Below are positions 1,631-58,186 of a DNA stretch of 64,000 nucleotides, piece by piece. A program made the translations under genes and the position numbers. The notes below the pieces were generated by a model. It did no database searches. It worked only from the letters and a program-made list of their open reading frames with translations, and was not told where the DNA came from. Positions within the stretch are counted from its first letter, which is position 1. Every line of letters starts with the position of its first letter. This DNA comes from Gemmatimonadaceae bacterium (GTDB taxonomy: Bacteria; Gemmatimonadota; Gemmatimonadetes; Gemmatimonadales; Gemmatimonadaceae): assembly GCA_035533755.1 (NCBI GenBank), contig DATLTC010000010.1:1-64000 (forward strand). The letters are read 5' to 3'.

Positions 1631-1720
1631 GGTAGGAGGGTAGGGGGGTAGGACGGTAGTAGGTAAACGGCGTCCGCAGTCATCCGTCCTGCCCCCCTAC
1701 TGTCCTACCGTCCTACCGTC
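1631..1720. repeat. dispersed GTAGGACGG hairpin repeat, copy 1
   Basis: G-rich GTAGG/GTAGGACGG units on the left and C-rich CCTACC/CCGTCCTAC units on the right can fold into a long hairpin around a central GTAAACGGCGT...CATCCGTCC core. This copy fills most of the gap between the MarC and thioesterase genes. Other copies lie at 31321, 52296, 54663, 55506 (inverted) and 58105 (inverted), with a half copy at 17818. Confidence 0.85.
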
Positions 1721-1721
1721 T

Positions 1722-1727
1722 TAGTAT
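1722..1727 (+). promoter_or_regulatory. TANNNT -10-like hexamer abutting a start codon
   Basis: TAGTAT lies between the right end of the hairpin repeat and ATG 1733. A -10 element here would start transcription at about the A of the ATG, as in leaderless genes. No convincing -35 hexamer is present. Confidence 0.3.
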
Positions 1728-1732
1728 TCGCC

Positions 1733-2203
1733 ATGGACGCTGCCATCCAGGACTACTACCCCGACGACTTCGCGCACTGCTACGGCTGCGGCCGCCTCCA
1801 CCCACACGGCATGCAGCTCAAGTCGCGGTGGGACGGGGCCGCTCCCGACATGGTGGCGCACTACACGCCGCGGGCCGATCAGATCGGTGTGCCGGGATTC
1901 GCGTACGGCGGACTGATCGCGTCGCTCATCGACTGCCACGCCATGGGCACGGCGGCCGCGGCCAGCGAACGCGCGGCCGGGCGGGCGATCGGACAGGAAC
2001 CCGCGCCGCGATTCGTGACCGGGGCGCTGAAGGTGGACTATCTCAAGCCCACGCCGATCGATGCCGAGCTGGAGATCCGCGCGCGGGCGCGCGAGATCGG
2101 CGAGCGAAAGGTGATCGTCGACGCCACCGTCAGCGCCCGTGGCGTGGTGACGGCCAGAGGCGAGGTGGTGGCGGTGCGGCTGCCGCCGACCATGGTGCGG
2201 TGA
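1733..2203 (+). CDS. PaaI-family hotdog-fold thioesterase
   Basis: A 156-residue single-domain protein of the usual hotdog length. It opens with HCYGCGRLHPHGMQLK, the Cys/His-containing N-terminal segment common in PaaI-type thioesterases. It then has the hotdog helix region VPGFAYGGLIASLIDCHAMG, where GG-hx-ID carries the catalytic Asp region, and a late strand GALKVDYLKPTPIDAELEI typical of the fold. It probably hydrolyses a small acyl-CoA; the substrate cannot be read from sequence. TAGTAT at 1722-1727 ends only five bases before the ATG, so the message could be leaderless. No SD sequence is seen. Confidence 0.85.
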   Translation: MDAAIQDYYPDDFAHCYGCGRLHPHGMQLKSRWDGAAPDMVAHYTPRADQIGVPGFAYGGLIASLIDCHAMGTAAAASERAAGRAIGQEPAPRFVTGALKVDYLKPTPIDAELEIRARAREIGERKVIVDATVSARGVVTARGEVVAVRLPPTMVR

Positions 2204-2225
2204 GCCGCCCCGCGTACACGCGTGG

Positions 2226-2606
2226 CTAGAAGCCGCCGCCCTTCTTCTTCGGGGCGGCCTTCTCCTGCGCCGCTTCCTTGCGCTCATCGGCGGCCGACTC
2301 GTACTGCACCTTGCCCACCTGCTTTCCGGTGGCCGCATCGACATTGACCTCGGCGGTGCCGCTCTTGCCGGCCACCGTCATGTCGAACGAGTAGATGAGC
2401 TTGCCGCCCTCGCGCTCGAGTTCGAGCGCCTCGATCTTGCCTGCCGGGAGGATCGACTGCGCCGTGGCCACGGCCTGGGCCTCGGTGATCTTGGCGGCGC
2501 GGACGAGCGCCGGGGGCATGTGGCGCTTGTACGTGGGAGCCTGCTGCGCGCCGGCGGTGGCGAACGCGCCGACCGCGAGCGCGATGGCGAGGAATGGGTG
2601 CTTCAT
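2226..2606 (-). CDS. secreted PepSY-domain protein
   Basis: A 126-residue protein with a clear signal peptide (MKHPFLAIALAVGAFATAGA, cleavage near AGA-QQ). The mature part contains ITEAQAVATAQSILPAGKI, followed by strands ending in VNVDAATGKQVG, which is the PepSY pattern of helix followed by a small sheet. PepSY proteins often act as inhibitory or regulatory domains for extracytoplasmic peptidases, though many are unassigned. The C-terminus is a basic low-complexity tail, AAPKKKGGGF. GGAG nine bases upstream supports the ATG. It is convergent with the thioesterase gene and close to a secreted-hydrolase region. Confidence 0.85.
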   Translation of the reverse strand: MKHPFLAIALAVGAFATAGAQQAPTYKRHMPPALVRAAKITEAQAVATAQSILPAGKIEALELEREGGKLIYSFDMTVAGKSGTAEVNVDAATGKQVGKVQYESAADERKEAAQEKAAPKKKGGGF

Positions 2607-2777
2607 GCGATGTGCTCCATCTCGTGCATGGTGACCGCGTGCCGGCCGGGGTGCCGGCAGCGTATGTCCGAACGCTATCGCGGCAAGCTGTCCAGGCGAT
2701 GACGGCCGGGCGCCTCTTGATCTTCGGCGCCGCCGCGCCCACGATTGCTGCGCCTCGACGCCCCATGGAGCTCCGGC

Positions 2778-4439
2778 ATGGCCGACATTCCCCGAAGAGA
2801 ATTCATGCGCTCGGCGCTGGCCGGTGGAGCGGCGCTGTTCCTGCCGCGCATCGCGCGCGCCGCCTCAGGGTTCGGCGGTCGGGCGCGCGCCGCGCTGGCC
2901 GACTCGCATATCGAAATTCTGCTGGACGAGCCGATCGGCACGATCGCCCCGGAGGTGTACGGCCACTTCACGGAACATCTGGGCGGCGTGATCTACGACG
3001 GCGTGTGGGTGGGGACGGACTCGAAGGTCCCCAACATCGGCGGCATCCGCAAAGCGCTGGTGGACGCGATGCGCGTGATCAGGCCGAGCGTGGTGCGGTG
3101 GCCGGGCGGCTGCTTTGCCGATTCGTACGACTGGCGCGACGGCGTGGGGCCGAGCGATCAGCGCCCCACGCGCACCAACTTCTGGGCGGGCGATCCGGGG
3201 CTGAAGGACGTGGCTGGCGGCCCGGCCAAGTACGACCCGAATGCGTTCGGCACCAGCGAATTCGCGCACTTTTGCCGGCTGATCGGCGCCCAACCGTACA
3301 TGGCGGCGAACGTGCGCACGCTGCCGGCGCGCGTGTTCGATGGGTGGCTGGAGTACTGCAACGCGCCGGCCGGCGCCACCACCTGGTCCAAGGCGCGGGC
3401 GGCGGCGGGCGACTCGGCGCCATACGATATCAAGTATTGGGGCGTGGGCAATGAGGCCTGGGGATGCGGCGGCGACTTCACCCCGGAGGAATACGCCGAG
3501 GAATACCGGCGGTTCGCGGGCTGGGGGGTGCCGGAGTTCGGCGTCGATCTGCGGTTCATCGCGTCGGGCCCGAGCGGGGCCGACGTGGAATGGACGCGGC
3601 GGCTGATGGGCGCGCTGCGCGACCGGAACAGCCTGGACCGCGTGTGGGGGCTGTCCATGCACCACTACTGCAGCGCGCCCGACGCGGGCGCCGACGCGGT
3701 GGCGTTCGACGAGCGCGGCTGGTACGACCTGTTGGTGAGCGCCGACCGGATGGAGACGGTCATCGCCGCCGTCTGGGAGACGATGCGCGAAGCGGATCGG
3801 ACCCATCGCGTGAAGCTGGTGGTGGACGAGTGGGGGGCGTGGCACAAGAGCGCGCCGATCGTGGATCCGAGCCATCTGTTCGAATCGCAGTCCACCATCC
3901 GCGACGCGCTGGTCACGGGCCTCACGCTCGACATCTTCCACCGGAATGCCGACAAGGTGGCGATGGCGAACGTGGCGCAGCTCATCAACTGCATCCATTC
4001 GCTGTTCTTCTCGCATGGCGATCAGTTCGTGGCCACGCCCAGCTATCACGTGTTCGCGATGTACGCCGCGCATCAGGGGGCGCAGTCGGTGCGCACGGAG
4101 GTGTCGGCGCCGCGGGTGGGGTGGGCGGCCAAGGACGGCACGCGGCAGAGCTTCTGGGGGCTCAACGGCTCGGCGTCGCTGGTCGGGCGCGACCTCACGC
4201 TCACGGTGACCAACGCGTCGCTTACCGAGCCGCGCGACGCCGAGCTCGTGGTGCGGGGCGGCACGGTGCAGGCGATGCGGGCCACGACGCTCGCGGCGCG
4301 CAGCGTGCACGACGTGAACAGCTTCGCGCATCCGGACGTGGTGGTGCCGGTGACGGCGGACCTGACGGCGCGGGAGCTGAACGGCGTGTACCGATTCCCG
4401 CCGGCGTCGGTGACGAAGCTGGCGATCCGGCTGGGGTAG
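2778..4439 (+). CDS. exported GH51 alpha-L-arabinofuranosidase
   Basis: A 553-residue glycoside hydrolase of clan A type. [20 protein letters not shown] is the characteristic N-terminal GH51 segment. The acid/base is Glu226 in [11 protein letters not shown] and the nucleophile Glu351 in VVDEWGAWH; a C-terminal beta domain follows. The N-terminus [19 protein letters not shown] is a twin-arginine signal, so the enzyme is likely folded before export. The family releases terminal arabinose from arabinan, arabinoxylan or related glycans. I chose ATG 2778 over an upstream in-frame ATG at 2745 because GGAG lies eight bases before it and it puts the Tat motif at the very N-terminus. No other glycan genes are adjacent. 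Confidence 0.93.
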
Positions 4440-4515
4440 CTGGCGGGCCGGTGCACCGTCCGTGCGGCGGGTCCGCGCCGGGTGGGGCGGGGCTCTAGCG
4501 CGGGTGGTGTACCGC

Positions 4516-4544
4516 GTGTCATATATTGGCCGACCGTATACAAT
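4516..4544 (+). promoter_or_regulatory. sigma70-type promoter for the S9 peptidase operon
   Basis: GTGTCA (4516-4521; four of six consensus positions), a 17-base spacer and TACAAT (4539-4544; five of six) sit in an AT-rich island in otherwise very GC-rich DNA. Transcription would begin about 80 bases before ATG 4630. Confidence 0.45.
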
Positions 4545-4629
4545 ATCCTTGCCCGCGCGGCGCCTCGGACTCGGTCCCCCGACGGCCCGCCGCCCGCCGC
4601 GCCACCCGCCCACCGATTCGGACGGCTCC

Positions 4630-7095: not shown

Positions 7096-7110
7096 CCCGG
7101 GACCCCACTC

Positions 7111-10100
7111 ATGATCTCCCTTCGATACCGCGCACTGCTCGCCGGCCTGCTCCTCGTGCCGCTCGCTGCCTCGCCGTCGCTCGCGCAGCGGCGCGGACGC
7201 GGCGGCCCGCCGCCCGCTCCCCAACCGTTGCACTTCCAACTCGTCGGTCCCGCGGCCGGCGGACGCATCGCGTCGATCAGCGGCGTGCCCGGCGACACGG
7301 CCATCTGGTACCTCGGCTCGGCATCCGGCGGCGTGTGGAAGTCGGTGGACGGCGGGCACAGCTTCGGCCCGATCTTCGACAAGGAACCCGTGCAGGCCAT
7401 CGGCGCGCTGGCCGTGGCGCCGTCCGATCACGACATCGTGTGGGCGGGCACCGGCGAAGCGTGGGCCATCCGCGACGCCGACGTCATGGGCGACGGCATC
7501 TACAAGTCCACCGACGCCGGCAAGACGTGGAAGAACATGGGGCTCGAGCACACGGGACGCATCGGCCGCATCCTCGTGAACCCGAGCAACCCCGACATCG
7601 TCTACGCGTGCGCGTTGGGCCGCGCCACCGGCCCGCAGCAGGAGCGCGGCGTGTTCCGCACCATGGACGGCGGGGAACATTGGACGCGCGTGCTGTTCGT
7701 GGACGAGAACACCGGCTGCTCGGGGCTCACCCTCGACCTGCACAATCCGGCCGTGCTGTTCGCCGGGATGTGGCAGGTGGTGATGCACACGTACGCCGAG
7801 CTGGGCGGCGGCGCGAGCAGCGGCATCTACGTGTCGCGCGACAGCGGCGCCACCTGGACGCACGTGGAAGACGCCGGGCTCCCGCATTCGCCGCTCGGCA
7901 AGATCGACGTGGCCGTGGCGCCGTCGGGATCCAACCGCGTGTACGCGCTCATCCAGACGCCTAACCAGGGATCGCTCTGGCGCTCCGACGACGGCGGGCA
8001 CGCGTGGCACGTCGTGAGCTGGAACCGCCTGCTCATCGGACGGGCCGGCTACTACATCCATCTCGTGGTCTCGAGCGGCAACGCCGACGAGGTGTACATC
8101 TCCAACAGTTCATTCTGGAAGTCCACCGACGGCGGCAAGACCTTCCAGACCGAGCCGTGGGGCGGCGACAACCACGACATCTGGATGGATCCGCTCGATC
8201 CCGACCATTTCGGCCTCACGTATGACGGCGGGGCGAGCGTGACGACCACGCGCGGCCGCACGATGACGCGGATCACGCTGCCCAACGCCCAGATGTACCA
8301 CGTGGCCGTGGACAATCAGGTGCCCTACTGGGTGTACGGCAACCGGCAGGATGACGGCACGATGCGCGGCCCGAGCGACGGCATGGAAGGCAACGACTTC
8401 CCCGGCGCCACGCGCATCATCAGCTTCGACAGCGCCGGGCAGGTCGCCGCCGGACGTGGTGGGCGCGGCGGTTTCAGCGGCTTCGGCGCGTACGGCCGCG
8501 GCGGGTTCGGGGGCACGCGCACGACGACGTGGGACCACGGCCTGGGCGGGTGCGAGTCCGGGTTCACGATTCCCGATCCCACCGACCCGAACATCGTGTG
8601 GGCCACCTGCTACGCCAACGAGGTGTCGCGCTACGACGCGCGCACCGGCCTGGCGCGCGCCGTGAGCCCGTGGATCCATACGCTGGATTGGGCGCCCAAC
8701 GACGCCAAGTACCGGTGCCATTGGACCCCGCCGCTGGCCATCGATCCGTTCGATCACAACACCGTGTACTACGGCTGCCAGGTGATCTTCAAGACCAGCA
8801 ACGGCGGCCAGAGCTGGAGCGTGATCAGCCCCGACCTGTCGACCAAGGATCCGAGCCGCATCATGTCGTCGGGCGGACTGGTGGGTGACAACCTCGGCCA
8901 GTTCGCGGGCGAGGTGGTGTTCGCCATCGCGCCGTCGTCGATCGAGCGCGGCCTGATCTGGGCCGGCACCAACGACGGCAAGGTCTGGAATACGCGCGAC
9001 GGCGGCAAGAGCTGGAACGACGTGAGCAAGAACGTCGGGATGGCGCCCTGGGGCACGGTGCGCGAGATCTACCCGTCCACGTTCGACGCCGGCACGGCGT
9101 ACATGACGGTGGACTATCACATGATGGACGACCGCAAGCCGTACATCTACAAGACCAGCGACTACGGCAAGTCGTGGACCAGGATCAGCGACGGGTTGCC
9201 GCAGAACCACCCGCTGGACTACGCGATGTCGGTGGCCGAGAATCCGAATCGCAAGGGCATGCTGTTCGCGGGCACGGGGCACGCGTTCTACTACTCGATG
9301 GACGATGGCGCCCACTGGACGCACTTCGACACCGGGCTGCCCGCGTCGCCGGTGACCTGGATCGTGGTGCCCAAGCTGTGGCACGACGTGGTGGTGTCCA
9401 CGTACGGCCGCGGCGTGTTCATCATGCACGACATCACCACCCTGGAGCAGGCCGACCAGGTGCCGGCCAACGCCGACGCGTACTTCTACGTGCCGCGGCC
9501 GGCGTTCCGCATGCCGCGCAGCGGCCAGGCGGAGTTCCGCTATCTCCTGCGCCAGGCGCCCACCGATTCGCTCACCCTGCAGATTGCCGACGCGAGCGGC
9601 GAGGTGGTGCGCACGATGAAGATCCAGGGACGCCGCGGCGAGAACGTCGCGTCGTGGGATCTGCAGTACGACGGGCCCGACCAGGTGGAGTTGCGCACCG
9701 TGGCCCCGGATAACCCGCACATCTTCGACGAACTGCGGTTCAAGGGCAAGGACACGCGGCCGGTGCTGCACTGGGGCATCGAGGGTCCGGTGCGCAATGG
9801 CCCGATGGCCGTGCCCGGCAGCTACTCGGCAACGCTCGTGGTGGACGGCAAGCGGTACACCCGGCCGTTCGAGCTGCTGGCCGATCCGAAGATCGCCAGT
9901 TCGCAGGCCGACCTCGAGGCGTCGCTCAAGGCGCAACTCCGGATCCGGGGCGACATGAACGAGACGGTGAAGATGATCAACCGGCTCGAGGTGATGCGGA
10001 AGACGCTCGAGGATCAGCAGGCGGCGGCGGCCGGCGACGCACCGCGCCGCGAGGCGCTGGCGGCGATGGACCAGAAGATGCTCGGCGTCGAACTCCGGCT

Positions 10101-10368
10101 GCTGTCGCACGAAGATCTGAACAGCGACGACAAGTACTTCGTCCAGGCGGACAAGGTGTATCTCAACCTGGTGTGGCTGTCCGCCGAGGTGGGTCTGGGC
10201 GGCGGCGACGTGGCCGGTGGGGCGGACTACAAGCCCACCAACACGTCGATCGAGGTGCTGCAGACGATCGAGAAGGATCTCGACGCGGCCAAGGTGGCGT
10301 ACGACGCGCTGATGACCAACGACCTGGCCGCGTACAACAAGCTCACGGGAACGAAGATCATTCCGTGA
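7111..10368 (+). CDS. exported BNR/VPS10-like beta-propeller protein
   Basis: A 1085-residue protein with a signal peptide (cleavage near SLAQ, residue 26). At least ten Asp-box repeats can be read, for example GVWKSVDGGHSFG, YKSTDAGKTWKN, FRTMDGGEHWTR, VWNTRDGGKSWND and YKTSDYGKSWTR, which indicates one or two sialidase/sortilin-like propellers over roughly residues 60-770. The C-terminal 300 residues hold an Ig-like strand region and a helical segment around MNETVKMINRLEVMRK. These proteins are often labelled glycosyl hydrolase or exo-sialidase, but no catalytic residues of those enzymes are evident, so binding or scaffolding is as likely. A Gly-Arg-Phe-rich insert lies near residues 448-472. 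A paralogue is encoded at 26717-29764. Confidence 0.88.
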   Translation: MISLRYRALLAGLLLVPLAASPSLAQRRGRGGPPPAPQPLHFQLVGPAAGGRIASISGVPGDTAIWYLGSASGGVWKSVDGGHSFGPIFDKEPVQAIGALAVAPSDHDIVWAGTGEAWAIRDADVMGDGIYKSTDAGKTWKNMGLEHTGRIGRILVNPSNPDIVYACALGRATGPQQERGVFRTMDGGEHWTRVLFVDENTGCSGLTLDLHNPAVLFAGMWQVVMHTYAELGGGASSGIYVSRDSGATWTHVEDAGLPHSPLGKIDVAVAPSGSNRVYALIQTPNQGSLWRSDDGGHAWHVVSWNRLLIGRAGYYIHLVVSSGNADEVYISNSSFWKSTDGGKTFQTEPWGGDNHDIWMDPLDPDHFGLTYDGGASVTTTRGRTMTRITLPNAQMYHVAVDNQVPYWVYGNRQDDGTMRGPSDGMEGNDFPGATRIISFDSAGQVAAGRGGRGGFSGFGAYGRGGFGGTRTTTWDHGLGGCESGFTIPDPTDPNIVWATCYANEVSRYDARTGLARAVSPWIHTLDWAPNDAKYRCHWTPPLAIDPFDHNTVYYGCQVIFKTSNGGQSWSVISPDLSTKDPSRIMSSGGLVGDNLGQFAGEVVFAIAPSSIERGLIWAGTNDGKVWNTRDGGKSWNDVSKNVGMAPWGTVREIYPSTFDAGTAYMTVDYHMMDDRKPYIYKTSDYGKSWTRISDGLPQNHPLDYAMSVAENPNRKGMLFAGTGHAFYYSMDDGAHWTHFDTGLPASPVTWIVVPKLWHDVVVSTYGRGVFIMHDITTLEQADQVPANADAYFYVPRPAFRMPRSGQAEFRYLLRQAPTDSLTLQIADASGEVVRTMKIQGRRGENVASWDLQYDGPDQVELRTVAPDNPHIFDELRFKGKDTRPVLHWGIEGPVRNGPMAVPGSYSATLVVDGKRYTRPFELLADPKIASSQADLEASLKAQLRIRGDMNETVKMINRLEVMRKTLEDQQAAAAGDAPRREALAAMDQKMLGVELRLLSHEDLNSDDKYFVQADKVYLNLVWLSAEVGLGGGDVAGGADYKPTNTSIEVLQTIEKDLDAAKVAYDALMTNDLAAYNKLTGTKIIP

Positions 10369-16280: not shown

Positions 16281-17822
16281 ATGACCATGAAACGAGCAGC
16301 GCTACTTCTCGCCGCGGTCGCGATACCCGCGGCGGCCTCTGCCCAACGAGGCGGCATGATGACGATGCCGGACACGGGGGCGATGGCCGCGATGCACGCG
16401 CCCGCGCCCAAGGAAGTGCACGTGACCACCGAGCATTCGATCACGATCGGCGGTCAGCGCATCGACTATGACGCCACCGTGGGCTCCATCATCCTCCGTG
16501 ACGCCAAGAACGAGCCCACGGGCGAGCTCTATTACATCGCCTATAGCAAGCGCGGCGTGACCGACGAGTCGCACCGGCCGCTGATGTTCGCGTACAACGG
16601 CGGGCCGGGCTCGTCGTCAATCTGGGTGCACATGGGACTGCTCGGACCCAAGCGCGTGGACATTCCCGACACCGCGCACGCCCCGCCGCCGCCGTACAAG
16701 CTGGTGGACAACCAGTACAGCATGCTCGACAAGGCCGATCTGGTGTTCATCGATCCCATCGGCACGGGGTACAGCAAGCCGATCGGCAAGGGCAAGGGCT
16801 CCGACTTCTGGGGCGTGGACCAGGACGCGAGTTCGTTGGCCCAGTTCGTGAGCCGCTACCTGAGCGAGTCGGGCCGCTGGAACTCACCGCGCTACCTGAT
16901 GGGCGAGAGCTACGGCACCACGCGGTCGGCCGCGCTCTCGGCGGTGTTGCAGTCGCGGTACAACATCGATCTCAACGGCGTGATCCTGCTGTCGTCGGTG
17001 CTGGATTTCCAGACCATCACGTTCGATCCGGGCAACGACGAGCCGTTCATCATGTACCTGCCGTCGTACGCCGCCGTGGCCTGGTACCACAACGCGCTGC
17101 CCAACAAGCCGGCGCAGCTGCGGCCATTCCTCACGCAGGTCGAGCAGTTCGCCACGCACGATTATGCCGAGGCGCTGCTGCAGGGCGACAAGCTCCCGGC
17201 GGCCGATCGCGCCACGATCCTGGACAAGTTGCACGAGTACACGGGCCTCAGCCGCGATTACATCGACAAGGCCGACCTGCGCGTGACGGCGAGCCAGTTC
17301 GAGAAGGAGCTGCTCCGCGAGCACGGGCTGGTGCTGGGGCGGCTGGACGCGCGGTTCACCGGCGAGACGGGCGACCCGCTGGCCGAGAACGCCGGCTACG
17401 ATCCGCAGTCGGCCGACATCAGCTCCGCGTACACGTCGCTGTTCAACCAGTACATGCACGACGATCTGAACTTCGGCAAGGACATGATGTACGCCACGAG
17501 CGGCAACGTGAATCCGTGGGACTGGAAGCACGGGTTCGCGCGCGGGTGGCCGGGCCACACGAACGTGGCCACCGACCTGGCCGAGACGTTGACCGCGAAT
17601 CCCAAGCTCCACGTGCTGCTCAACGCCGGCCTGTTCGACCTGGCCACGCCGTACTTCCCCGCCGAGTGGACGATGGACCATCTCGGCGTGCCCAAGCAGG
17701 TGCGGGCCCAGATCACGATTGCCGAGTACATGTCGGGGCACATGGTGTACGTGCACGAGCCGTCGCTGGCCGAGTTCAAGAAGAACGTCGCGGCGTTCAT
17801 CGATAAGACGGCAGGACAGTAG
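16281..17822 (+). CDS. S10 family serine carboxypeptidase-like protein, exported
   Basis: A 513-residue protein with a signal peptide (cleavage after AAASA, near residue 21). The S10 motifs are YNGGPGSSSIWVHMG (oxyanion region), MGESYGTTRSAA (catalytic Ser in GESYG), NAGLFDLATPY (Asp) and SGHMVYVHE (His). The fold is alpha/beta-hydrolase, and the family removes C-terminal residues from peptides at low pH. ATG codons occur at 16281 and 16287; no SD decides between them. The stop TAG lies inside the half copy of the dispersed hairpin repeat (17818-17850). It is the last gene of the peptidase region. Confidence 0.92.
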   Translation: MTMKRAALLLAAVAIPAAASAQRGGMMTMPDTGAMAAMHAPAPKEVHVTTEHSITIGGQRIDYDATVGSIILRDAKNEPTGELYYIAYSKRGVTDESHRPLMFAYNGGPGSSSIWVHMGLLGPKRVDIPDTAHAPPPPYKLVDNQYSMLDKADLVFIDPIGTGYSKPIGKGKGSDFWGVDQDASSLAQFVSRYLSESGRWNSPRYLMGESYGTTRSAALSAVLQSRYNIDLNGVILLSSVLDFQTITFDPGNDEPFIMYLPSYAAVAWYHNALPNKPAQLRPFLTQVEQFATHDYAEALLQGDKLPAADRATILDKLHEYTGLSRDYIDKADLRVTASQFEKELLREHGLVLGRLDARFTGETGDPLAENAGYDPQSADISSAYTSLFNQYMHDDLNFGKDMMYATSGNVNPWDWKHGFARGWPGHTNVATDLAETLTANPKLHVLLNAGLFDLATPYFPAEWTMDHLGVPKQVRAQITIAEYMSGHMVYVHEPSLAEFKKNVAAFIDKTAGQ

Positions 17823-17850
17823 GACGGTAGGACCGGAGGACGGATATCCG
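17818..17850. repeat. half copy of the GTAGGACGG repeat
   Basis: Only the left, G-rich arm is present (AGTAGGACGGTAGGACCGG, then AGGACGGAT); the central core and C-rich arm are missing. The first TAG serves as stop codon of the S10 gene. A separate perfect hairpin follows directly. Confidence 0.65.
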
Positions 17851-17854
17851 GCAC

Positions 17855-17892
17855 GAGAATGCCGCCTGCCATTCCGGGCAGGCGGCATTCTC
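17855..17892 (+). terminator. perfect 16-bp hairpin terminator
   Basis: GAGAATGCCGCCTGCC (17855-17870) pairs perfectly with 17877-17892 around a six-base loop. It lies 33 bases after the S10 stop codon. It lacks a long T-tract but is the obvious terminator candidate for the peptidase gene pair. Confidence 0.6.
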
Positions 17893-26716: not shown

Positions 26717-29700
26717 ATGCAGGCATTCACGATTCGCGGCGCGTCGCGCGCCGCGCTCATGCTCCTGGCGCTGCCGCTCGCGGCCGGCGCCCAACGCGTG
26801 ACCTACGACTCGGCGCTCTGGTCGGGGATGCACTACCGGATGATCGGGCCCGAGCGCGGCGGACGCGTGACGACCGTCACCGGCGTGCCCTCGCAGCCGC
26901 GCACCTTCTACATGGGCACCACGGGCGGCGGCGTGTGGAAGACCACCGACGCCGGCGCCTCCTGGCGCAACGTCACCGACGGCTTCCTTGCCGTGGCGTC
27001 GATCGGGGCGGTGGAGGTGTCGCGGTCCGATCCGAACATCGTGTACGTGGGCACCGGCTCGTCCAAGATCCGGAGCAACGTCTCGATCGGTCGCGGCCTC
27101 TACAAGTCCACCGACGGCGGGCATTCGTGGGCCTTCGTGGGGCTCCAGGCGGTGGGCCAGATCGCCACCGTGCGCATCGACCCCACCGATCCCGACCTGG
27201 TGTACGTGGCCGCGCAGGGTAATCCGTTCGTGCCCAACGTGGAGCGCGGCGTCTATCGCACCAGGGACGGCGGCAAGAGCTGGCAGAAGATCCTCTACGT
27301 CTCCGACAGCACCGGCGCCACGGACCTCGAACTGCAGCCCGGCCATCCCGGCGTGATCTTCGCCGCGATGTGGCACGGCCAGCGCAAGCCGTGGACCATC
27401 GTCAGCGGCGCGTACGAGGGCGGCATCTACAAGAGCAGCGACGGCGGGGACAGTTGGACCAAGCTGGGCGGCGGACTGCCCGATCAGCTGTTCGGCCGCA
27501 GCAACGTCGCGATCTCGCGGGCGATGCCCAACCGGATCTACGCGCTGATCGAGGCCAAGCCGGGCGGCGGGCTGTACCGCTCCGAGGATTCCGGCGCCAC
27601 GTGGACGCTGGTGAATGCGTCGCCGAGCCTGTGGACGCGGCCGTTCTACTACACCACGCTGGGCGTGGATCCCAACGATCCGGACGTGGTGTACGTGGGC
27701 GACGAGGGCTGGTTCAAGAGCACCGACGGCGGCAAGACCTTCCGCAGCGAGCCGGTGCCGCACGGCGACAACCATGACCTCTGGATCAATCCCGACAACT
27801 CCGACGCGATGATCCAGTCCAACGACGGCGGCGCCAACGTCTCGCTGGACGGCGGCAGGACGTGGAGTTCGCAACTCAATCAGCCCACGGCCGAGATCTA
27901 CCAGGTGGCGGTGGACAGCCAGTATCCGTACCGCGTGTACGGTGCGCAGCAGGACGACAACACACTCATCGTGCCCAGCCTGCCGCTGGGCAACGGGCAG
28001 GAGTGGCGCGAGGGCCCGGGGTGCGAGACGGGGCCGATCATCCCCAACACGCTCAACCCCGACACCGTGTACGGCTCGTGCAAGGGGCAGTTCAGCCGCC
28101 TCAACTTGAAGACGGCCAACGAGCAGCAGTACTGGGTGGGCGCCCAGTCGCTGTACGGTAACGGCGGCGCCGAGCTGATCTATCGCTTCCAGCGCGTGTC
28201 GCCCATGGAGGTGTCGCCGTACGATCCGAACACCGTGTACTACGGCTCGCAGTACGTCCATCGCACGCGCGACGAAGGCGTGACGTGGACGCGCATCAGC
28301 CCCGACCTGACCTGGAATCCGAAAGGCGAGCCGCAGGAGGCGAGCGGCACGCCGATCACGCGCGATGCCACCGGCGAGGAGGTGTACAGCACGCTGTATT
28401 CCATTCGCGAATCGCCGGTCAAGCGCGGCATCATCTGGACCGGCTCCAACGACGGCCTCGTGTACGTCACGCGCGACGACGGCAAGACGTGGACGAACGT
28501 GACGCCCAAAGGGCTCCAGCCCGGCGGTCGCGTGCAGAACATCGAGCCGAGCCCGCGGCGGCCGGGGTCTGCGTACGTCGCCATCTACCGCTACCTGCTC
28601 GGCGACTTCGCGCCGTACATCTACCGCACCGACGACTACGGCGCGTCGTGGACGCTGCTCACCAACGGGACGAACGGCATCCCCGGCGACTCGCCCACGC
28701 GCGTGGTGCGCGAGGATCCCGATCGCGCCGGCCTCCTGTACGCCGGCACCGAATTCGGGATGTACGTCTCGTTCGACAACGGCGCGCACTGGCAGTCGTT
28801 CCAGATGAACCTGCCGGTCACGCCCATTACCGACATCAAGGTGGCGCACAACGACCTCGTGATCTCCACGCAGGGCCGGTCGTTCTGGATTCTCGACAAC
28901 CTCTCCCCGCTGCACCAACTCACGGCGCAGGTGGCGCACTCGGCCGCGCATCTGTTCACGCCGGAACAGGCCGTGCGGCACGGGGCGCGCGCCGGGTTCG
29001 GCGGCGGCCGCGGCGCCGCGGGCCCGGAGTATCCGGCGCCCGGTGCGCAGATCGACTACTACATCGGGTCGCCGCCGGCCGGCGACGTGGTGCTCCAGAT
29101 CCTGGACGGCTCGGGAACGGTGATCCAGACGTTCTCGAGCGCCGCCCCGGCTGCGGTGGGCCGTGGTGGTGGGGAGGGGGGATTCCGCGGCCGGCCCGCG
29201 GCGGCGCGTGTGGAGAAGACGGTCGGCATGCACCGCTTCACCTGGGACCTCCGCTATCCCGGACCCTGGGAGAGCCCGGCGCGTCCCCAAGGACCCAACG
29301 GCCCGATGGCCGCGCCGGGCCGGTACTCGGTGCGCCTCACGGTCGGCTCGTATACCAGCACGCAGGCGTTCACGCTGATCGAGGATCCGCGCGTCACCAG
29401 CGACGGCGTGACCAGGGCCGATCTGCGGGCGCAGTTGGCCCACAACCTGCGGGCGCGCGCGTTGGTGAGCGACGTCAACCAACTCGTGGCGCGGGTGACG
29501 GCGGCCCAGGACCGGCTGCGCGGGGCCACGGGTGCCGCAGCCGATACCTTGGCCAAGGTCACGGAACTGGCCAGCCATCTGGTCACGCCGGGCATTCGGT
29601 ATAGCAAGCCCGAGCTGCAGACCCACATCACGTATCTGTACGGCATGACCAACGACGCGGACCAGAAGGTCGGACGCGACGCCGTGGAGCGTTACGCGGT

Positions 29701-29764
29701 GTTGAAGAAGGAACTCGACGAGCGGATCCGGCAAGCGAACGCGATCCTGGGGCCGGCCAACTGA
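26717..29764 (+). CDS. exported BNR/VPS10-like beta-propeller protein, second copy
   Basis: A 1015-residue paralogue of the protein at 7111-10368. The signal peptide ends at PLAAGA (about residue 24). Around eleven Asp-box repeats are visible, including VWKTTDAGASWRN, LYKSTDGGHSW, VYRTRDGGKSWQK, WFKSTDGGKTFRS and IYRTDDYGASWTL, covering residues 50-730. Then come Gly/Arg-rich linkers, an Ig-like region and a C-terminal helical part. It starts from ATG 26717, with GGGGAG just upstream, rather than from an ATG at 26687 overlapping the previous stop, because the former gives a clean signal peptide. No catalytic signature is evident; a peptide- or glycan-binding surface role is inferred. Confidence 0.88.
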   Translation: MQAFTIRGASRAALMLLALPLAAGAQRVTYDSALWSGMHYRMIGPERGGRVTTVTGVPSQPRTFYMGTTGGGVWKTTDAGASWRNVTDGFLAVASIGAVEVSRSDPNIVYVGTGSSKIRSNVSIGRGLYKSTDGGHSWAFVGLQAVGQIATVRIDPTDPDLVYVAAQGNPFVPNVERGVYRTRDGGKSWQKILYVSDSTGATDLELQPGHPGVIFAAMWHGQRKPWTIVSGAYEGGIYKSSDGGDSWTKLGGGLPDQLFGRSNVAISRAMPNRIYALIEAKPGGGLYRSEDSGATWTLVNASPSLWTRPFYYTTLGVDPNDPDVVYVGDEGWFKSTDGGKTFRSEPVPHGDNHDLWINPDNSDAMIQSNDGGANVSLDGGRTWSSQLNQPTAEIYQVAVDSQYPYRVYGAQQDDNTLIVPSLPLGNGQEWREGPGCETGPIIPNTLNPDTVYGSCKGQFSRLNLKTANEQQYWVGAQSLYGNGGAELIYRFQRVSPMEVSPYDPNTVYYGSQYVHRTRDEGVTWTRISPDLTWNPKGEPQEASGTPITRDATGEEVYSTLYSIRESPVKRGIIWTGSNDGLVYVTRDDGKTWTNVTPKGLQPGGRVQNIEPSPRRPGSAYVAIYRYLLGDFAPYIYRTDDYGASWTLLTNGTNGIPGDSPTRVVREDPDRAGLLYAGTEFGMYVSFDNGAHWQSFQMNLPVTPITDIKVAHNDLVISTQGRSFWILDNLSPLHQLTAQVAHSAAHLFTPEQAVRHGARAGFGGGRGAAGPEYPAPGAQIDYYIGSPPAGDVVLQILDGSGTVIQTFSSAAPAAVGRGGGEGGFRGRPAAARVEKTVGMHRFTWDLRYPGPWESPARPQGPNGPMAAPGRYSVRLTVGSYTSTQAFTLIEDPRVTSDGVTRADLRAQLAHNLRARALVSDVNQLVARVTAAQDRLRGATGAAADTLAKVTELASHLVTPGIRYSKPELQTHITYLYGMTNDADQKVGRDAVERYAVLKKELDERIRQANAILGPAN

Positions 29765-29911: not shown

Positions 29912-31333
29912 ATGCCCGAGTCCAACCCACGTCGCGGTTCCGCGGCGCTGATCGTCGCGCTGACGGTGCTCCTGACCGTCCCGGCCGTCTCCCGCGCGCA
30001 GTCGCTCGCCGACCAGTACCGCGGTCCGGCCAATCGGCTGATCGACGCCGCCATGGCCGATACCACGGCGTACAGCCGGTTGGCCGACATGACCGACAGC
30101 TTCGGCAATCGACTGAGCGGATCGCCCAACCTCGAGCACGCCATCGACTGGATCCTGGCGCGCATGAAGGCCGACGGCCTGGCCAACGTGCACGGCGAGC
30201 CGGTGATGGTGCCGCACTGGGTGCGCGGCGAAGAATCGGCGGAGTTGGTGCAGCCGCGCGCCTACCAGCTCCACATGCTGGGGCTCGGCGGCAGCGTGGC
30301 CACGCCGCCGCAGGGCATCACCGCCCCGGTGCTCGTGGTGAAGAGCTTCGACGATCTCGCCGCGCACGCCGACCAGGCCAAGGGGAAGATCGTGATCTTC
30401 GACTCCCCCTTTCCCACCGACGTCCCGCCCATGGAGGGGTACCGCATCAACGTCGCGTACCGCGGCGGCGCCGCGTCGGCGGCGGCCGCGGTGGGTGCGG
30501 TCGCGGCCCTCATCCGCTCGGTGACGCCCCACTCGCAGCAGACCCCGCACACCGGCTCGCTGCGCTACGCGCCCGGCGTACCGAAGATCCCCTCGGCCGC
30601 GCTCAGCGTGGAAGACGTGGAGATGATCCACCGGATGCAGGACCGCGGCAATCCGATCGTGCTCACCCTGCGCATGCAGGCGCACACGGAGCCCGACGCG
30701 CCGTCGCGGAACATCGTGGCCGAGCTGCGGGGGTCGGAGAAGCCCGATGAGGTCGTGGTGCTGGGCGGACACATCGATTCGTGGGACGTGGGCGAGGGCG
30801 CCATGGACGACGGCGGTGGCAGCTTCGCCGCCTGGGAGGCCGTGCGGCTGATGCAGGCCCTGGGACTCAAGCCGCGGCGCACGGTGCGCGTGGTGATGTG
30901 GGTGAACGAGGAGAACGGCGGACGCGGCGGGCGGGCCTATCACGACGCGCATCTGGCGGAGCTTCCCAGGCACGTGGCGGCCATGGAGTCGGACAACGGC
31001 GTCTTCCGTCCCGATGGCTTCCGCTTCCAGGGCAGCGACTCGGCGCTGGTCATCGCCAAGCAGATCGGCGCCCTGCTCGCGCGCATCGGCGCGTCCAACG
31101 TCGTGGCCGGCGATCCCGAGGCGGACGTCGAGGCCACGATCCACACCGGCGTGCCCGGGTTCGCGCTCAACGTGGACGACTCGCGCTACTTCTGGTTCCA
31201 TCACACCGCGGCCGACATGATGACCGTCATCGACCCCGACGACTTCCGCCGCTGCATCGCGACGATGGCCGTGATGGCGTACGTGCTGGCGGACATGCCG
31301 GATCCGTTGCCGCGAGTGACGGTAGGACGGTAG
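29912..31333 (+). CDS. exported M28 family peptidase, carboxypeptidase Q-like
   Basis: A 473-residue protein with a signal peptide ending VSRAQ (about residue 30). A PA-type domain covers about residues 110-260 and the zinc peptidase domain follows. Ligand motifs are VLGGHIDSWDVGEGAMDDGG (His and Asp, Asp), VNEENGGRGG (Glu pair), AMESDNG (Asp) and FWFHHTAAD (His). This order and the HIDSWD motif match the carboxypeptidase Q/plasma glutamate carboxypeptidase branch, which cleaves dipeptides. ATG 29912 begins the signal peptide. The last residues, VTVGR, and the stop codon come from the hairpin repeat that begins at 31321. Confidence 0.92.
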   Translation: MPESNPRRGSAALIVALTVLLTVPAVSRAQSLADQYRGPANRLIDAAMADTTAYSRLADMTDSFGNRLSGSPNLEHAIDWILARMKADGLANVHGEPVMVPHWVRGEESAELVQPRAYQLHMLGLGGSVATPPQGITAPVLVVKSFDDLAAHADQAKGKIVIFDSPFPTDVPPMEGYRINVAYRGGAASAAAAVGAVAALIRSVTPHSQQTPHTGSLRYAPGVPKIPSAALSVEDVEMIHRMQDRGNPIVLTLRMQAHTEPDAPSRNIVAELRGSEKPDEVVVLGGHIDSWDVGEGAMDDGGGSFAAWEAVRLMQALGLKPRRTVRVVMWVNEENGGRGGRAYHDAHLAELPRHVAAMESDNGVFRPDGFRFQGSDSALVIAKQIGALLARIGASNVVAGDPEADVEATIHTGVPGFALNVDDSRYFWFHHTAADMMTVIDPDDFRRCIATMAVMAYVLADMPDPLPRVTVGR

Positions 31334-31414
31334 GGGGGTAGGGGGGTAGGACGGGAACGGCGTTCCGCAGTCATCCGTCCTACCCCCCTACCCCCCTACC
31401 GTCCTGCCATCCTA
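31321..31414. repeat. dispersed GTAGGACGG hairpin repeat, copy 2
   Basis: A full copy: GTAGGACGG and GTAGGGGG units on the left, GAACGGCGTTCCGCAGTCAT core, CCTACCCCC and CCGTCCTGCC units on the right. The arms are almost perfect complements of each other. The upstream gene's stop codon (31331-31333) lies in the left arm. Confidence 0.85.
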
Positions 31415-41645: not shown

Positions 41646-41742
41646 GTTCCAGGCCCCGGAGGGCGTGAGCCTTCTAACTCCGTCAGGGCCCCGAAGGCAG
41701 CAGCGGCATGAAGTGTCTGGCGTCGCTTCGTCAGGCCTGGGA
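41646..41742 (+). ncRNA. ffs: bacterial small signal recognition particle RNA (4.5S type)
   Basis: The SRP domain IV signature is clear: GTCAGG at 41682-41687 and AGCAGC at 41699-41704 flank the apical hairpin that binds Ffh. The ends pair: CCAGGCC (41649-41655) with GGCCTGG (41734-41740). The size, near 97 bases, fits the Alu-less 4.5S form. Compared with E. coli, the segment between GTCAGG and AGCAGC is 11 bases rather than 10, giving a GCC/GGC stem closed by a five-base CCGAA loop instead of a GNRA tetraloop. The gene lies just upstream of dnaX, a linkage seen in many bacteria. The exact ends are estimated. Confidence 0.88.
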
Positions 41743-41746
41743 CACT

Positions 41747-48323: not shown

Positions 48324-48329
48324 CGTCTC

Positions 48330-49874: not shown

Positions 49875-49876
49875 CG

Positions 49877-50368: not shown

Positions 50369-50405
50369 GATGTGAACTATATGCCGGGGGGCGCGACCGG
50401 CGGAA

Positions 50406-50431: not shown

Positions 50432-50559
50432 CCAATCGGCCGGGAGCGGCTGCCACCCCCGCCGCCGCCGGGGGCCTTGCCCCCTCGCCCCCGCCGTCCT
50501 GACAGGCTTTGGAGGCACGGACATTGCAACTCGGCCCCCTTGGGACGACCTTTCATTCG

Positions 50560-51165: not shown

Positions 51166-51174
51166 CCCACCCGC

Positions 51175-52290: not shown

Positions 52291-52295
52291 ACGAT

Positions 52296-52383
52296 GGTAG
52301 GGAGGTAGGACGGTAGGACTGAAGGACGGTAGACGGCGTTCCGAAGTCATCCGTCCTACGCCCCTACCCCCCTACCGTCCTAC
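52296..52383. repeat. dispersed GTAGGACGG hairpin repeat, copy 3
   Basis: A full copy filling the gap between the convergent dnaJ and mnmA genes. Core: TAGACGGCGTTCCGAAGTCA. The right arm contains the stop codon of mnmA (52380-52382 on the minus strand). As a hairpin it could act as a bidirectional terminator. Confidence 0.85.
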
Positions 52384-53471: not shown

Positions 53472-53487
53472 CGCCCGGTGTCCACGC

Positions 53488-54645: not shown

Positions 54646-54651
54646 GAGGGG

Positions 54652-54657
54652 AATATA
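54652..54657 (-). promoter_or_regulatory. TATATT -10-like hexamer abutting the desulfurase start
   Basis: On the minus strand TATATT lies six bases before the ATG at 54645, so transcription would begin at the start codon itself. The region upstream is hairpin repeat copy 4 and holds no clear -35. Confidence 0.4.
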
Positions 54658-54662
54658 CCGAT

Positions 54663-54757
54663 GGACGGTAGGACGGTAGGACGGTAGGGGGGGAGGGGGG
54701 TAAACGGCGTTCCGCAGTCATCCGTCCTACGCCCCTACTCCCCTACCGCCCTACCGT
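54663..54757. repeat. dispersed GTAGGACGG hairpin repeat, copy 4
   Basis: The longest left arm: three GGACGGTA units, then G-rich stretches, the TAAACGGCGTTCCGCAGTCA core and right-arm CCCCTACTCCCCTACC units. It fills the gap between the bshB1 stop and the desulfurase start. Confidence 0.85.
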
Positions 54758-54760
54758 TCG

Positions 54761-55477
54761 TCAAAACGTAGAGACCTCGAGCGCCACGACATCGTCCACG
54801 CGCATCGTCTCGCTGGTGTAGAACGGCTCGCCGTACCGGGTGCGGATGAGCGCACCGTAATAGGCCGCGTGGTGGCGCACCACGTCGTAGAGCGGCTCGC
54901 CGGTGGGATACACCTCGCCGGCCTGCGTGACGCCGTCGAACTGCGACGCGTAGCAGCGGATGGCCTCCATCTTCTGCTCGAACACCTCCGAGATGTCGAC
55001 CACGAACGTGGGCCGTTCGAAGTCCTGCCGGTAGGTGATGGCGTGGATGACCTTGTGCGGCCGGTGCTTGGGGATGCCCGGCGACACCTTGGCCAGGCCC
55101 GCCACGAAGCAGGCGTCGCGCACGAGCTGGGCGGTGGCGATGTGGTCGGGATGCCGTCCCTGGATCGACGGCGCGATCACGACGCGCGGTTTGAGGCGGC
55201 GAATCACGCCGGCCACCATGGCGCGCGTCTCGGGCGTGTTCACGATGCCGGCGTCGGGCAGGCCCAGATTCTCGCGCACCGCCACGCCGAGGATCTGCGC
55301 GGCGCGCGCCGCCTCCTCGCCGCGCAGGTCGGCCGACCCGCGCGTGCCCGACTCTCCCTGCGAGAGATCGAGGATCGCGGTGCTGCGACCTCGGGCCACG
55401 GCCATGAGCAGCGTGCCGCCGCAGGTCAATTCGACGTCGTCGCGGTGGGCCGCGATGGCGAGGAGGTCGATGGGCAT
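54761..55477 (-). CDS. bshB1: bacillithiol biosynthesis deacetylase BshB1 (PIG-L family)
   Basis: A 238-residue zinc deacetylase. IDLLAIAAHRDDVELTCGGT carries the AHxDD zinc motif of the PIG-L/LmbE fold, with a later His in GRHPDHIATAQL. LDLSQGESGTRGSADLR is the strongly conserved BshB1 segment. It would remove the acetyl group from GlcNAc-malate in bacillithiol synthesis; bshA and bshC are not in the window. An ATG 20 codons upstream exists in frame, but 55477 gives the family N-terminus and clears the hairpin repeat. The neighbours upstream in the same strand are sulfur genes. Confidence 0.92.
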   Translation of the reverse strand: MPIDLLAIAAHRDDVELTCGGTLLMAVARGRSTAILDLSQGESGTRGSADLRGEEAARAAQILGVAVRENLGLPDAGIVNTPETRAMVAGVIRRLKPRVVIAPSIQGRHPDHIATAQLVRDACFVAGLAKVSPGIPKHRPHKVIHAITYRQDFERPTFVVDISEVFEQKMEAIRCYASQFDGVTQAGEVYPTGEPLYDVVRHHAAYYGALIRTRYGEPFYTSETMRVDDVVALEVSTF

Positions 55478-55505
55478 GAGGGAAGCTAAAGCGAACGACG
55501 GTGAC

Positions 55506-55580
55506 GGGGTAGGACGCCAGGACGGATGCCTGCTCAACGCCGTTTACCAACAACCGTCCTACCGTCCTACTCTCCTACCT
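55506..55580. repeat. dispersed GTAGGACGG hairpin repeat, copy 5 (inverted)
   Basis: The core reads AACGCCGTTTACC, the reverse complement of the core of copies 1 and 4, so this copy is flipped. The right arm CCGTCCTACCGTCCTAC ends directly at the stop codon of the last permease gene. The arms are shorter and less regular than in copies 1-4. Confidence 0.8.
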
Positions 55581-56837
55581 TCATTCGTAGCGCAACGCCT
55601 CCACGGGGTCCAACTGCGCCGCGCGACGCGCCGGCAGCACGCCGAATATCAGCCCGATCCCCACCGACACGGTGACCGCGATCAGGGTCAGGTTCACCGG
55701 CGCCGAGGCGTTGATGTGCATGGCCGCGGTGGCCACGCGGCCCAGGCCGAGTCCGACGACGACCCCGATCACGCCGCCGGCGCCGGTGAGCGTGGCCGCC
55801 TCCACCAGGAACTGCTGCAGGATGTCGCGGCGCGTGGCGCCCACCGCCTTGCGCAGGCCGATCTCGTGCGTGCGCTCGGTGACGCTGATCATCATCACCG
55901 CCATCACCCCGATGCCTCCCACGAGCAACGCCACCGCGCTCAGCACGATCATGACCAGAAAGAACACGCCGGTGAGCTTGTTGAATACGTCGAGGATCTG
56001 ATCCTGCGTGAGCAGGTCGAAGGTGTCATGGTCGGCGGGGCGCAGCCGGCGCGCCTCGCGCAGCGTCACGATCACCGCGCCCTGCGCCTCGTCCAACGGC
56101 ACGCCGGCGCGCGGCTTGACCGGAATGAACACCATGTTGGTCTTGTCGAGCGTGAACTGGTGATCGAGCATCTGATACGGCACGATGGCCACGATGTTCT
56201 GGCCCGGCGGGTTGAAGATGTTCGCGGCGGGCTGGTACAGGCCCACGACCTGCACCGGCTTGCCGCCCACGTGCACCCACTTGCCCATCGGGTCGATGCT
56301 GCCGAACAGCTTGCGCGCCACGTCCACGTCGATGACGACCACCGACGACCCGGTGCGTTCCTCGGCGCGGGTGAACCACCGGCCCTCGGCCAGGCTGCCG
56401 CCCTGGATGTCGGTGAAGTGCGCATCGGCGCCGATGACCGCCTGCGGCTGCGTGCGGACGCCGTCGTACTCCACGCGGGCAATGTACTGCCCCCAGATGC
56501 CCGCATACCCGACCTCGGGCAGGGCCTGGATGCGCGCCGCCTCGTCGGGCGTGAGGTCGGGGCGCGCGCGCACCCACTTGGGCAGGTCCTGCGGATTGAG
56601 CGGCGTCTGCGAGAACACCTTCATCACGTAGAAGGTGGTGGGGCCGGCGATCTCGATCGTGTGGATGATCTGCTCCTGGATGCCCTGCACGATCGACGCC
56701 ATCGCCATCACCGTGGACACGCCGATGACGACGCCGAGGATGGTGAGCCCGGACCGCGTCTTGCTCACGCGGAGCGAGTCCACCGCGACGGCCACGTTTT
56801 CGCGGAAACTGTCGGAGACGCGGCGCCAGTGGCTCAC
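55581..56837 (-). CDS. MacB-like ABC transporter permease, type A, pair 3
   Basis: A 418-residue permease of the MacB/FtsX fold. There is one N-terminal helix (TRSGLTILGVVIGVSTVMAM), a large extracytoplasmic domain (about 45-270) and three C-terminal helices. TERTHEIGLRKAVGA is the cytoplasmic coupling motif and LDPVEALRYE the C-terminus shared by all three type A permeases here. It lacks the double-Cys loop of the other two. Ten bases separate it from its type B partner. MacB-like pumps use a mechanotransmission mechanism on periplasmic substrates; the cargo is unknown. Confidence 0.92.
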   Translation of the reverse strand: MSHWRRVSDSFRENVAVAVDSLRVSKTRSGLTILGVVIGVSTVMAMASIVQGIQEQIIHTIEIAGPTTFYVMKVFSQTPLNPQDLPKWVRARPDLTPDEAARIQALPEVGYAGIWGQYIARVEYDGVRTQPQAVIGADAHFTDIQGGSLAEGRWFTRAEERTGSSVVVIDVDVARKLFGSIDPMGKWVHVGGKPVQVVGLYQPAANIFNPPGQNIVAIVPYQMLDHQFTLDKTNMVFIPVKPRAGVPLDEAQGAVIVTLREARRLRPADHDTFDLLTQDQILDVFNKLTGVFFLVMIVLSAVALLVGGIGVMAVMMISVTERTHEIGLRKAVGATRRDILQQFLVEAATLTGAGGVIGVVVGLGLGRVATAAMHINASAPVNLTLIAVTVSVGIGLIFGVLPARRAAQLDPVEALRYE

Positions 56838-56847
56838 GCGGGCATCC

Positions 56848-58089
56848 TCATTCGGCGTGCAGCGCCGCGACGGGGTCGAGGCGCGCCGCGCGCACCGCCG
56901 GGTACACCCCGAAGATCACGCCCACGCCGGCGCCCAGCGTCAGCGCCAGCACCACCGACCAGAGCGTGACGCGGGCCGGCAGCGGCGACAGCACGGTGAT
57001 CGCCTGCGCGAACAGGAACCCGCCCCCGGCGCCCAGCGCGCCGCCGAGCGTGGCGAGCATCACCGCCTCGGCCAGGAACTGCCGGCGGATGTCGCGCTGC
57101 GTGGCGCCCACCGACTTGCGGATGCCGATCTCGTGCGTGCGCTCGCGCACCGCCATGAGCATGATGTTCATGATCACGATGCCGCCGACGACGATCCCGA
57201 TGGCGACCACCGCCGGCACGACGGCGAACAGCACGGCCGTAAGGCTCTTCCAGAAGGCCACGAACGCGTCCGAGGTCTCGACGGAGAAGTTGTCCGGTTG
57301 CCCCGGGCGCAGGTGGTGGGCCACGCGCATCGCCTCCTCGGCGGTGGCCATCGCCGGCGCGATGTCGGCCGCGGCCGCCATCTTCACCGAGACCTGCGTG
57401 GTCTGGCGGCGGCCGTACACGGACTCGAAGGTCGTGATCGGCATCAGCGCGAAGCCGTCGAACGACTGGCCGAGCACGCGCCCCTTGGGCGCGATCGTGC
57501 CGACCACGGTGAACTGCTGGCCGCGGATGCGCACCGGCTGGCCGACGGCCGAGACGCCGTTGAACAGCTTGGTGGCGACGTCGGCGCCGATCGCGACCAC
57601 GTACCGCCGCTCGCGCACGTCGATGTCGGTGATCGGCTGGCCGGTGGTGAAGCGATAGTCCTGGACCGTCTGGTACGGGGCGCTGATCCCGAAGACGAGC
57701 ACGTCGCCCAGCGTCTGGTCGCGCCAGAGGACGTCGGATCGCGGCGTGGGCCAGCCGGAGGTGATCCCCACGGCCTGCGCGCCGGGCAGCGCCTGCTCCA
57801 CGACCGCGGCGTCGGCCATCGTGATCGGCGGTCGCCGGCGGGCCCGATCCATGTCCTCGTCGGAGATGAGCCCGATCTGGATCGGGTCGCGCCGCACCAT
57901 GAAGGAGTTCGCGCCGACCATGTTGTCGGCGATGTTCTCCTTCACGTACGCGTTCATGCCCTGGATGATCGCCACCACCGCCACCAGGAACGCCACGCTC
58001 ACGACGATGCCGAGCAGCGTGAAGAACGACCGCAGCTTGCTCACGCGGATCTGCGTGAACGCCGTGAGGAGCACGTCGGCGAAGCGCAT
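56848..58089 (-). CDS. MacB-like ABC transporter permease, type B, pair 3
   Basis: A 413-residue permease. The N-terminus FTQIRVSKLRSFFTLLGIVV marks the type B form, followed by an extracytoplasmic domain and three C-terminal helices with the coupling motif RERTHEIGIRKSVGA. The C-terminus is LDPVAALHAE. It pairs with the gene at 55581-56837 and is more diverged from the other type B copies than they are from each other. TAGTTT lies a few bases before the ATG at 58089, after a hairpin repeat, so this pair may have its own leaderless transcript. Confidence 0.92.
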   Translation of the reverse strand: MRFADVLLTAFTQIRVSKLRSFFTLLGIVVSVAFLVAVVAIIQGMNAYVKENIADNMVGANSFMVRRDPIQIGLISDEDMDRARRRPPITMADAAVVEQALPGAQAVGITSGWPTPRSDVLWRDQTLGDVLVFGISAPYQTVQDYRFTTGQPITDIDVRERRYVVAIGADVATKLFNGVSAVGQPVRIRGQQFTVVGTIAPKGRVLGQSFDGFALMPITTFESVYGRRQTTQVSVKMAAAADIAPAMATAEEAMRVAHHLRPGQPDNFSVETSDAFVAFWKSLTAVLFAVVPAVVAIGIVVGGIVIMNIMLMAVRERTHEIGIRKSVGATQRDIRRQFLAEAVMLATLGGALGAGGGFLFAQAITVLSPLPARVTLWSVVLALTLGAGVGVIFGVYPAVRAARLDPVAALHAE

Positions 58090-58104
58090 GGAAGGAAACT
58101 ACAC

Positions 58105-58186
58105 GTAGGACGGTCGGAGAGTAGGACGGATGACTGCGCAACGCCGTTCCCCACGACCCCCCTACCACCCTACCGTCCTACTCTCA
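58105..58186. repeat. dispersed GTAGGACGG hairpin repeat, copy 6 (inverted)
   Basis: A flipped copy with core CGCAACGCCGTTCCCC. GTAGGACGG units lie on the left and CCCTACCGTCCTAC on the right. It separates permease pair 2 from pair 3. Confidence 0.8.

Follow-up and report, generated by a model that had tools for sequence, protein, structure and literature searches.

Near-palindromic elements, each with a short core set between two inverted G-rich octamer arrays, are dispersed at gene 3' ends in the genome of a Gemmatimonadaceae bacterium, and a comparison of four sister genomes reveals that their position is steadier than their sequence, with the octamer being exchanged at gene ends that are occupied. 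The window analyzed is a stretch of 64,000 nucleotides from this genome (G000), a metagenome-assembled genome of 3.25 Mb from a soil bacterium. The elements may be best understood as bidirectional gene-end hairpins that have a two-way 3'-end role, spread by copying and undergo rapid unit turnover, an interpretation that we regard as an even call.

Element architecture and copy number

All seven places described in a previous sequence-only reading of the window were read directly and confirmed as six full near-palindromes and one half copy. They are given here together with an unlike hairpin that adjoins the half copy.

1631..1719 (+): full element 1, preceded by a MarC-family gene (stop 1623-1625) and followed by a thioesterase-superfamily gene (start 1733); RNA fold MFE -56.1, z -6.05
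17810..17846 (+): half copy, a single G-rich array on the sense strand, left arm only
17855..17892: perfect hairpin of unrelated sequence immediately behind the half copy, gagaatgccgcctgcc...ggcaggcggcattctc, without a U-tract
31318..31414 (+): full element 2, which provides the TAG stop (31331-31333) of an M28 peptidase-type gene (29912-31333); RNA fold MFE -87.8, z -11.3
52296..52383 (+): full element 3, in the gap where two genes converge, one dnaJ-like (stop 52290) and the other mnmA-like
54664..54756 (+): full element 4, flanked on one side by the start of a class-V aminotransferase (cysteine desulfurase-like) gene and on the other by the stop of a PIG-L-like gene
55506..55579 (-): full element 5, core inverted, following a MacB/FtsX permease gene (- strand, gene end 55581) at 2 nt from its stop
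58105..58184 (-): full element 6, core inverted, flanked by two MacB-type permease genes

In a full element of ~87 bp, a core that is conserved in part separates the array of GGTAGGAC, a G-rich octamer, from a complementary array, with usually 3-4 octamers in the left arm and 2-5 complementary octamers on the other side, in agreement with the variable unit number already described for the arms. Cores such as GTAAACGGCGTTCCGCAGTCATCC align between copies, as do the arms, and some cores are themselves perfect small hairpins (ACTGCGTTACGCAGT). The occurrence of both orientations was upheld in part: the core is indeed inverted at 55506 and 58105, but each element is near-palindromic, so that the core alone sets the orientation. 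The minus-strand region 55581-63998 holds at least six tandem paralogous MacB/FtsX-type permease genes, spaced ~1.26-1.36 kb apart (repeat families D1/D2), with Pfam support for this assignment in the first permease of the array. Elsewhere in the window, two paralogous genes (7111-10368 and 26717-29764) carry a repeated motif of ~48 nt (family D3).

Across the whole genome, GTAGGACGGTAGG with at most one mismatch has 193 matches, compared with 6 for a reversed control. A covariance model built from 17 copies gave 83 strand hits, which merge into 42 full places, single arrays being additional. Such a model had been proposed as a check on the genome and its relatives, and it locates the element well beyond the window (~42 places); together with the fold scores, the whole-genome matches support a dispersed family of intergenic hairpins, and the common core found at many loci demonstrates dispersal. 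The extrapolation from about one copy per 10 kb to hundreds per genome did not hold, since full copies occur at ~1 per 77 kb and the window with its six copies is a local cluster.

Placement at gene ends and folding

Placement was quantified with a gene caller written for this analysis and run on 711 kb of the own genome, to which the placement statistics refer. The outer edges of the elements mostly lie 0-10 nt from a stop codon, which puts the elements at gene 3' ends. The 18 full elements with both neighbors visible comprise 11 in tandem, six in convergent and one in divergent gaps, with gap totals of 431, 71 and 73, respectively. All 11 elements in tandem gaps are nearer to the preceding stop than to the following start (sign test, p 0.001). 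Elements are also more frequent in convergent gaps (6/71 vs 12/504 other gaps, p 0.016). Just 1/18 lies in a divergent gap, but this avoidance is not significant (p 0.7). The proximity to stop codons could partly stem from selection against insertion near promoters.

Among genes that end at an array, 23/35 have TAG as the stop codon, compared with 153/516 elsewhere (p 4e-5), and in 16 of the 35 the stop codon lies inside the array; the values -4, -12 and -20 are repeated among the edge positions, since the stop codon is the TAG within GTAGG. In the window, the TAG stop of the mnmA-like gene (52380-52382, - strand) lies inside the outer octamer of element 3, and that of a serine-carboxypeptidase-like gene (16356-17822, stop 17820-17822) inside the half copy. 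This also matters for genome annotation, as numerous genes stop inside a repeat array. Among 17 single arrays, 12 follow a stop with the G-rich strand in sense, and four precede a start with the G-rich strand in antisense. The genes neighboring the elements have unrelated functions, which fits a general 3'-end role.

The six full elements of the window have RNA fold z scores from -2.5 to -11.3 relative to dinucleotide shuffles. Because the hairpins are near-perfect and palindromic, both strands have the same structure, and the transcript expected from the sequence would form a hairpin of 30-40 bp with the G-rich arm 5', whichever side reads through. Each arm contains the motif GTAGG 3-4 times, paired within the stem and with no unpaired GTAG/CGTC foot. 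An Rfam scan of the window gave no family above the gathering score for the element, consistent with the earlier failure to recognize a named family; its sole match was a bacterial small SRP RNA (41648-41744 (+), RF00169, 43.5 bits).

Several familiar explanations were excluded by sequence comparisons. A covarying RNA stem is ruled out by pair counts between the arms that are no better than in shuffles (17 copies) and by spacer triplets in the left and right arms of one locus that match no better than in shuffled loci (26 copies, p 0.18). These unmatched spacers, with covariation not above shuffles, also speak against arm-to-arm conversion, one of the processes previously suggested for the varying unit number. 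Ordinary intrinsic terminators are excluded by the absence of a U-tract behind the hairpins: no T-run was found 3' of the right arm in 20 copies, and a terminator scan of window positions 50-64 kb flagged none of the four elements there. Insertion with target duplication is rejected because the longest word shared by the flanks averages 2.9 nt, compared with 2.88 nt after shuffling. A REP element driven by a RAYT transposase is likewise rejected, as the corresponding domain (Y1_Tnp, PF01797) is missing throughout the own genome, in the three sister genomes and also in the relatives G015 and G018; the lack of a RAYT-like gene noticed in the window therefore extends to the genus.

Unit exchange among relatives

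The comparison within the genus included the own genome and three sister species (G001, G002 and G003), which are ~82% identical. With at most one mismatch, GGTAGGACGGTAGGA occurs 130, 24, 55 and 3 times in G000, G001, G002 and G003, respectively, and GGTGAGGCGGTGAGG occurs 0, 1, 4 and 72 times. Accordingly, GGTAGGAC predominates in three species and the fourth, G003, uses GGTGAGGC. For regions of G000 that bear elements, the matching stretches of the sister genomes were identified and the junctions were then compared. At approximately five orthologous gene ends that hold GGTAGGAC in G000, arrays or hairpins of GGTGARGC were found in G003, and window elements 3-6 are occupied in at least one sister but have diverged.

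C77:17165, C77:25253, C67:39722, C71:31014 and C54:35705: GGTGARGC in G003 at GGTAGGAC sites of G000
C3:10740: in G003, one arm of each octamer kind
C54:39005 and C54:42071: element in G000, site empty in G001 and G003
52296..52383 (element 3): orthologous element in G002, diverged sequence with a different unit in G001
54664..54756 (element 4): site filled in both G001 and G002, with diverged sequence
55506..55579 (element 5): present in G002, decayed in G001
58105..58184 (element 6): present in G001 and G002, without core in G003

When a gene-end gap has an array in G000, the sisters have one in 10/19 cases, compared with 0/82 otherwise (Fisher p 5e-9), a contrast to be read with the ascertainment that several sister stretches were chosen as matches to element-bearing regions. 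The different octamer of G003 at GGTAGGAC sites of G000 indicates that the site outlives the unit, and this exchangeability at a retained site argues that geometry and place count more than sequence. The sister species lack an element at some sites, so that none of the hairpins is indispensable by itself. Elements of mixed composition also occur: one in G003 (contig C214) has a left arm of GGTAGAGC units and a right arm of GGTGAGGC units and is a possible intermediate of unit switching. In G000, a GGTAGGAC array on contig C29 continues without a break as an array of a different octamer, GGCACAAC, and at C26:108470 octamer arms surround an intrinsic terminator of canonical form, complete with a T7 tract, in place of the usual core.

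Beyond the genus, the covariance model matches 28 of 60 relatives and 76 of 395 genomes of the phylum Gemmatimonadota, nearly all of them in the order of the window. These relatives keep the architecture but not the unit, with GGGCAGGA, GGTCGGAC, GGATGGAA, GGCGGTCA, GGTAAGAC and others each being typical of a lineage. The exact own-octamer hairpin was found in a GTDB scan only in Gemmatimonadetes bacterium 2013_60CM_65_52, the closest records possibly lying outside that scan. When 400 kb of the relative G018 (7.5 Mb) were scanned without regard to the unit sequence, 66 array hairpins were identified, 55 of them mostly intergenic; third-order Markov controls contained none, compared with 13 and 66 in real sequence. 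Convergent gaps in G018 carry a hairpin in 19/53 cases vs 36/260 for other gaps (p 0.0005). Periods of 7, 8, 9, 10, 11, 14 and 15 coexist in this one genome, which rules out period 8 as special. Its region C2:1.78-2.18 Mb contains about ten families of hairpins whose units measure 7-15 nt, including the 9-mers ACAGAGGAC and ACAGGATGA, and the family of the 11-mer GGACTGAAGAA keeps a near-constant distance of 29-42 nt from the stop codon. In another relative (G059, contig C206), octamer arms surround an inverted-repeat core, GTCATTGCGAGG...CGCAATGAC.

Interpretation and comparison with known systems

Conservation of the site despite exchange of the unit therefore favors a two-way 3'-end hairpin. 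In this reading, the two inverted octamer arrays around their short core adjoin or overlap the neighboring stop codon, and transcription from either side would yield the same hairpin of 30-40 bp, which might halt readthrough between adjacent transcripts and protect the mRNA 3' end. By analogy with reports on E. coli REPs near stops, it may also delay ribosomes at the stop codon. Copies would spread among gene ends, and in each lineage the octamer would drift or be replaced as a set as the site stays occupied. The comparisons show the architecture, place and dispersal of the elements, their lineage-specific units and the exchange of units at orthologous gene ends, and from these we infer transcription, termination or protection, and the means of spread; an action on termination, decay or ribosome release is likewise a proposal. 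The absence of compensatory changes counts against this role, because a selected RNA stem would usually show refinement of its pairing.

Selfish miniature elements of the REP/MITE kind, mobilized in trans by a putative transposase and collected at gene ends only through selective removal of insertions elsewhere, would need no cellular function. Dispersed copies with a common core, empty sites in sister species and the patchy distribution of lineage-specific families (76/395 phylum genomes, nearly all of one order) are in line with this explanation, but it appears rather unlikely given that no target-site duplication is present, that RAYT is lacking in the whole genus and in the hairpin-rich G015 and G018, that sites are kept over ~18% divergence with a different unit, and that the array provides the stop codon in 16/35 cases. 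If instead the G-rich strand itself mattered (in sense at gene ends and in antisense before starts) and pairing were secondary, the elements would be G-quadruplex repeats like those of Xanthomonas; 16 of the 17 single arrays (12 + 4) fit the published orientation rule and in most of the lineage octamers the G-rich strand still has two GG pairs. We consider this improbable, however, as the tracts are mostly GG, allowing two-tetrad quadruplexes at best, some lineages have one G-tract per unit (GGTGAAGC, GGGCGTAT), and the TA of GGTAGG is conserved as strongly as the Gs.

Doubt is greater still for arrayed DNA sites to which a nucleoid protein (HU/IHF, for example) would bind, an analogy to the proposal for Geobacter metallireducens: the same geometry was so interpreted there and conservation here lies in the DNA sequence rather than in pairing, but a wholesale unit change between sisters and the coexistence of periods of 7 to 15 in one genome would hardly be tolerable for a conserved binding protein, and placement tracks stop codons. 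A long shot is a dedicated array-writing activity, through templated or biased inter-locus conversion, that would keep stop-codon sites filled and swap the unit genome-wide with its template; a change of template would then explain the different octamer hairpins of sister species at the same genes. Chance tandem repeats or assembly artefacts deserve practically no credence. The genomes are mostly metagenome assemblies, yet the Markov controls, the reversed-motif control (193 vs 6 matches) and the cross-genome comparison, with independent genomes occupied at the same sites and an exact match in a separate GTDB genome, have already refuted this explanation.

Among eukaryotes, Foldback (FB) transposons flank a variable middle with inverted repeats that are themselves made of short tandem subrepeats; they make target duplications and are far larger than the elements described here. 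The elements resemble them as inverted repeats of tandem subrepeats and differ in that no target duplication was found. Searches of the literature with the repeat strings gave no relevant match, and those for repeats or palindromes in Gemmatimonas/Gemmatimonadetes found nothing relevant. REP/BIME sequences (GTAG and CGTC families) are dispersed palindromes in convergent and tandem gaps near ORF 3' ends (PMC3733652, PMC12306157), and REPs located at most 15 nt from a stop in E. coli were reported to stall ribosomes, according to work cited in PMC12306157. The present elements share with REPs the tandem and convergent gaps near ORF 3' ends and the GTAG motif, but they consist of tandem octamers, repeat GTAG within the stem rather than in an unpaired foot, and occur in a genus without RAYT.

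Geobacter metallireducens has paired multicopy sites (classes 1-3), in which 3-5 tandem hepta- or octanucleotides face an array of the same units on the opposite strand with variable spacing; PMC2700814 describes tens of copies and several families per genome and proposes them as sites of global regulators (IHF/HU). Here, too, short units form arrays on opposite strands with a variable distance between them, with other unit sequences, and an analysis of gene ends or a comparative analysis was not found for the Geobacter sites in the text consulted. The placement rule is shared with the dispersed G-rich heptamer arrays of Xanthomonas, (GGGAATC)n, and Nostoc, GGGGA(C/T)T, which according to PMC4692102 are rare between divergent genes, have the G-rich strand in sense after stops and in antisense before starts, and form ~70 convergent (inverted) pairs per Xanthomonas genome. 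Similarly, the genome studied here has dispersed short arrays, of which 16/17 single ones obey this orientation rule, and close inverted pairs at 42 full places. Unlike those of Xanthomonas, the unit is 8 rather than 7 nt with GG instead of GGG tracts, so that the heptamer with a GGG tract for a three-tetrad quadruplex is not what these elements contain, and many inverted pairs share a core. A unit switch at the same sites between sister species is not described for the Xanthomonas and Nostoc repeats in the accessible text of PMC4692102.

In the literature searched, no description was found of the octamer form in this order, of stop codons supplied by the array or of the orthologous unit switch. 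The kind of element is already known: Xanthomonas, Nostoc and Geobacter have short arrays at gene ends, reported piecemeal and with proposed functions that differ, and REPs share the gene-end placement. By separating site from sequence, the present elements provide a natural experiment on the role of such hairpins and on repeat homogenization without RAYT.
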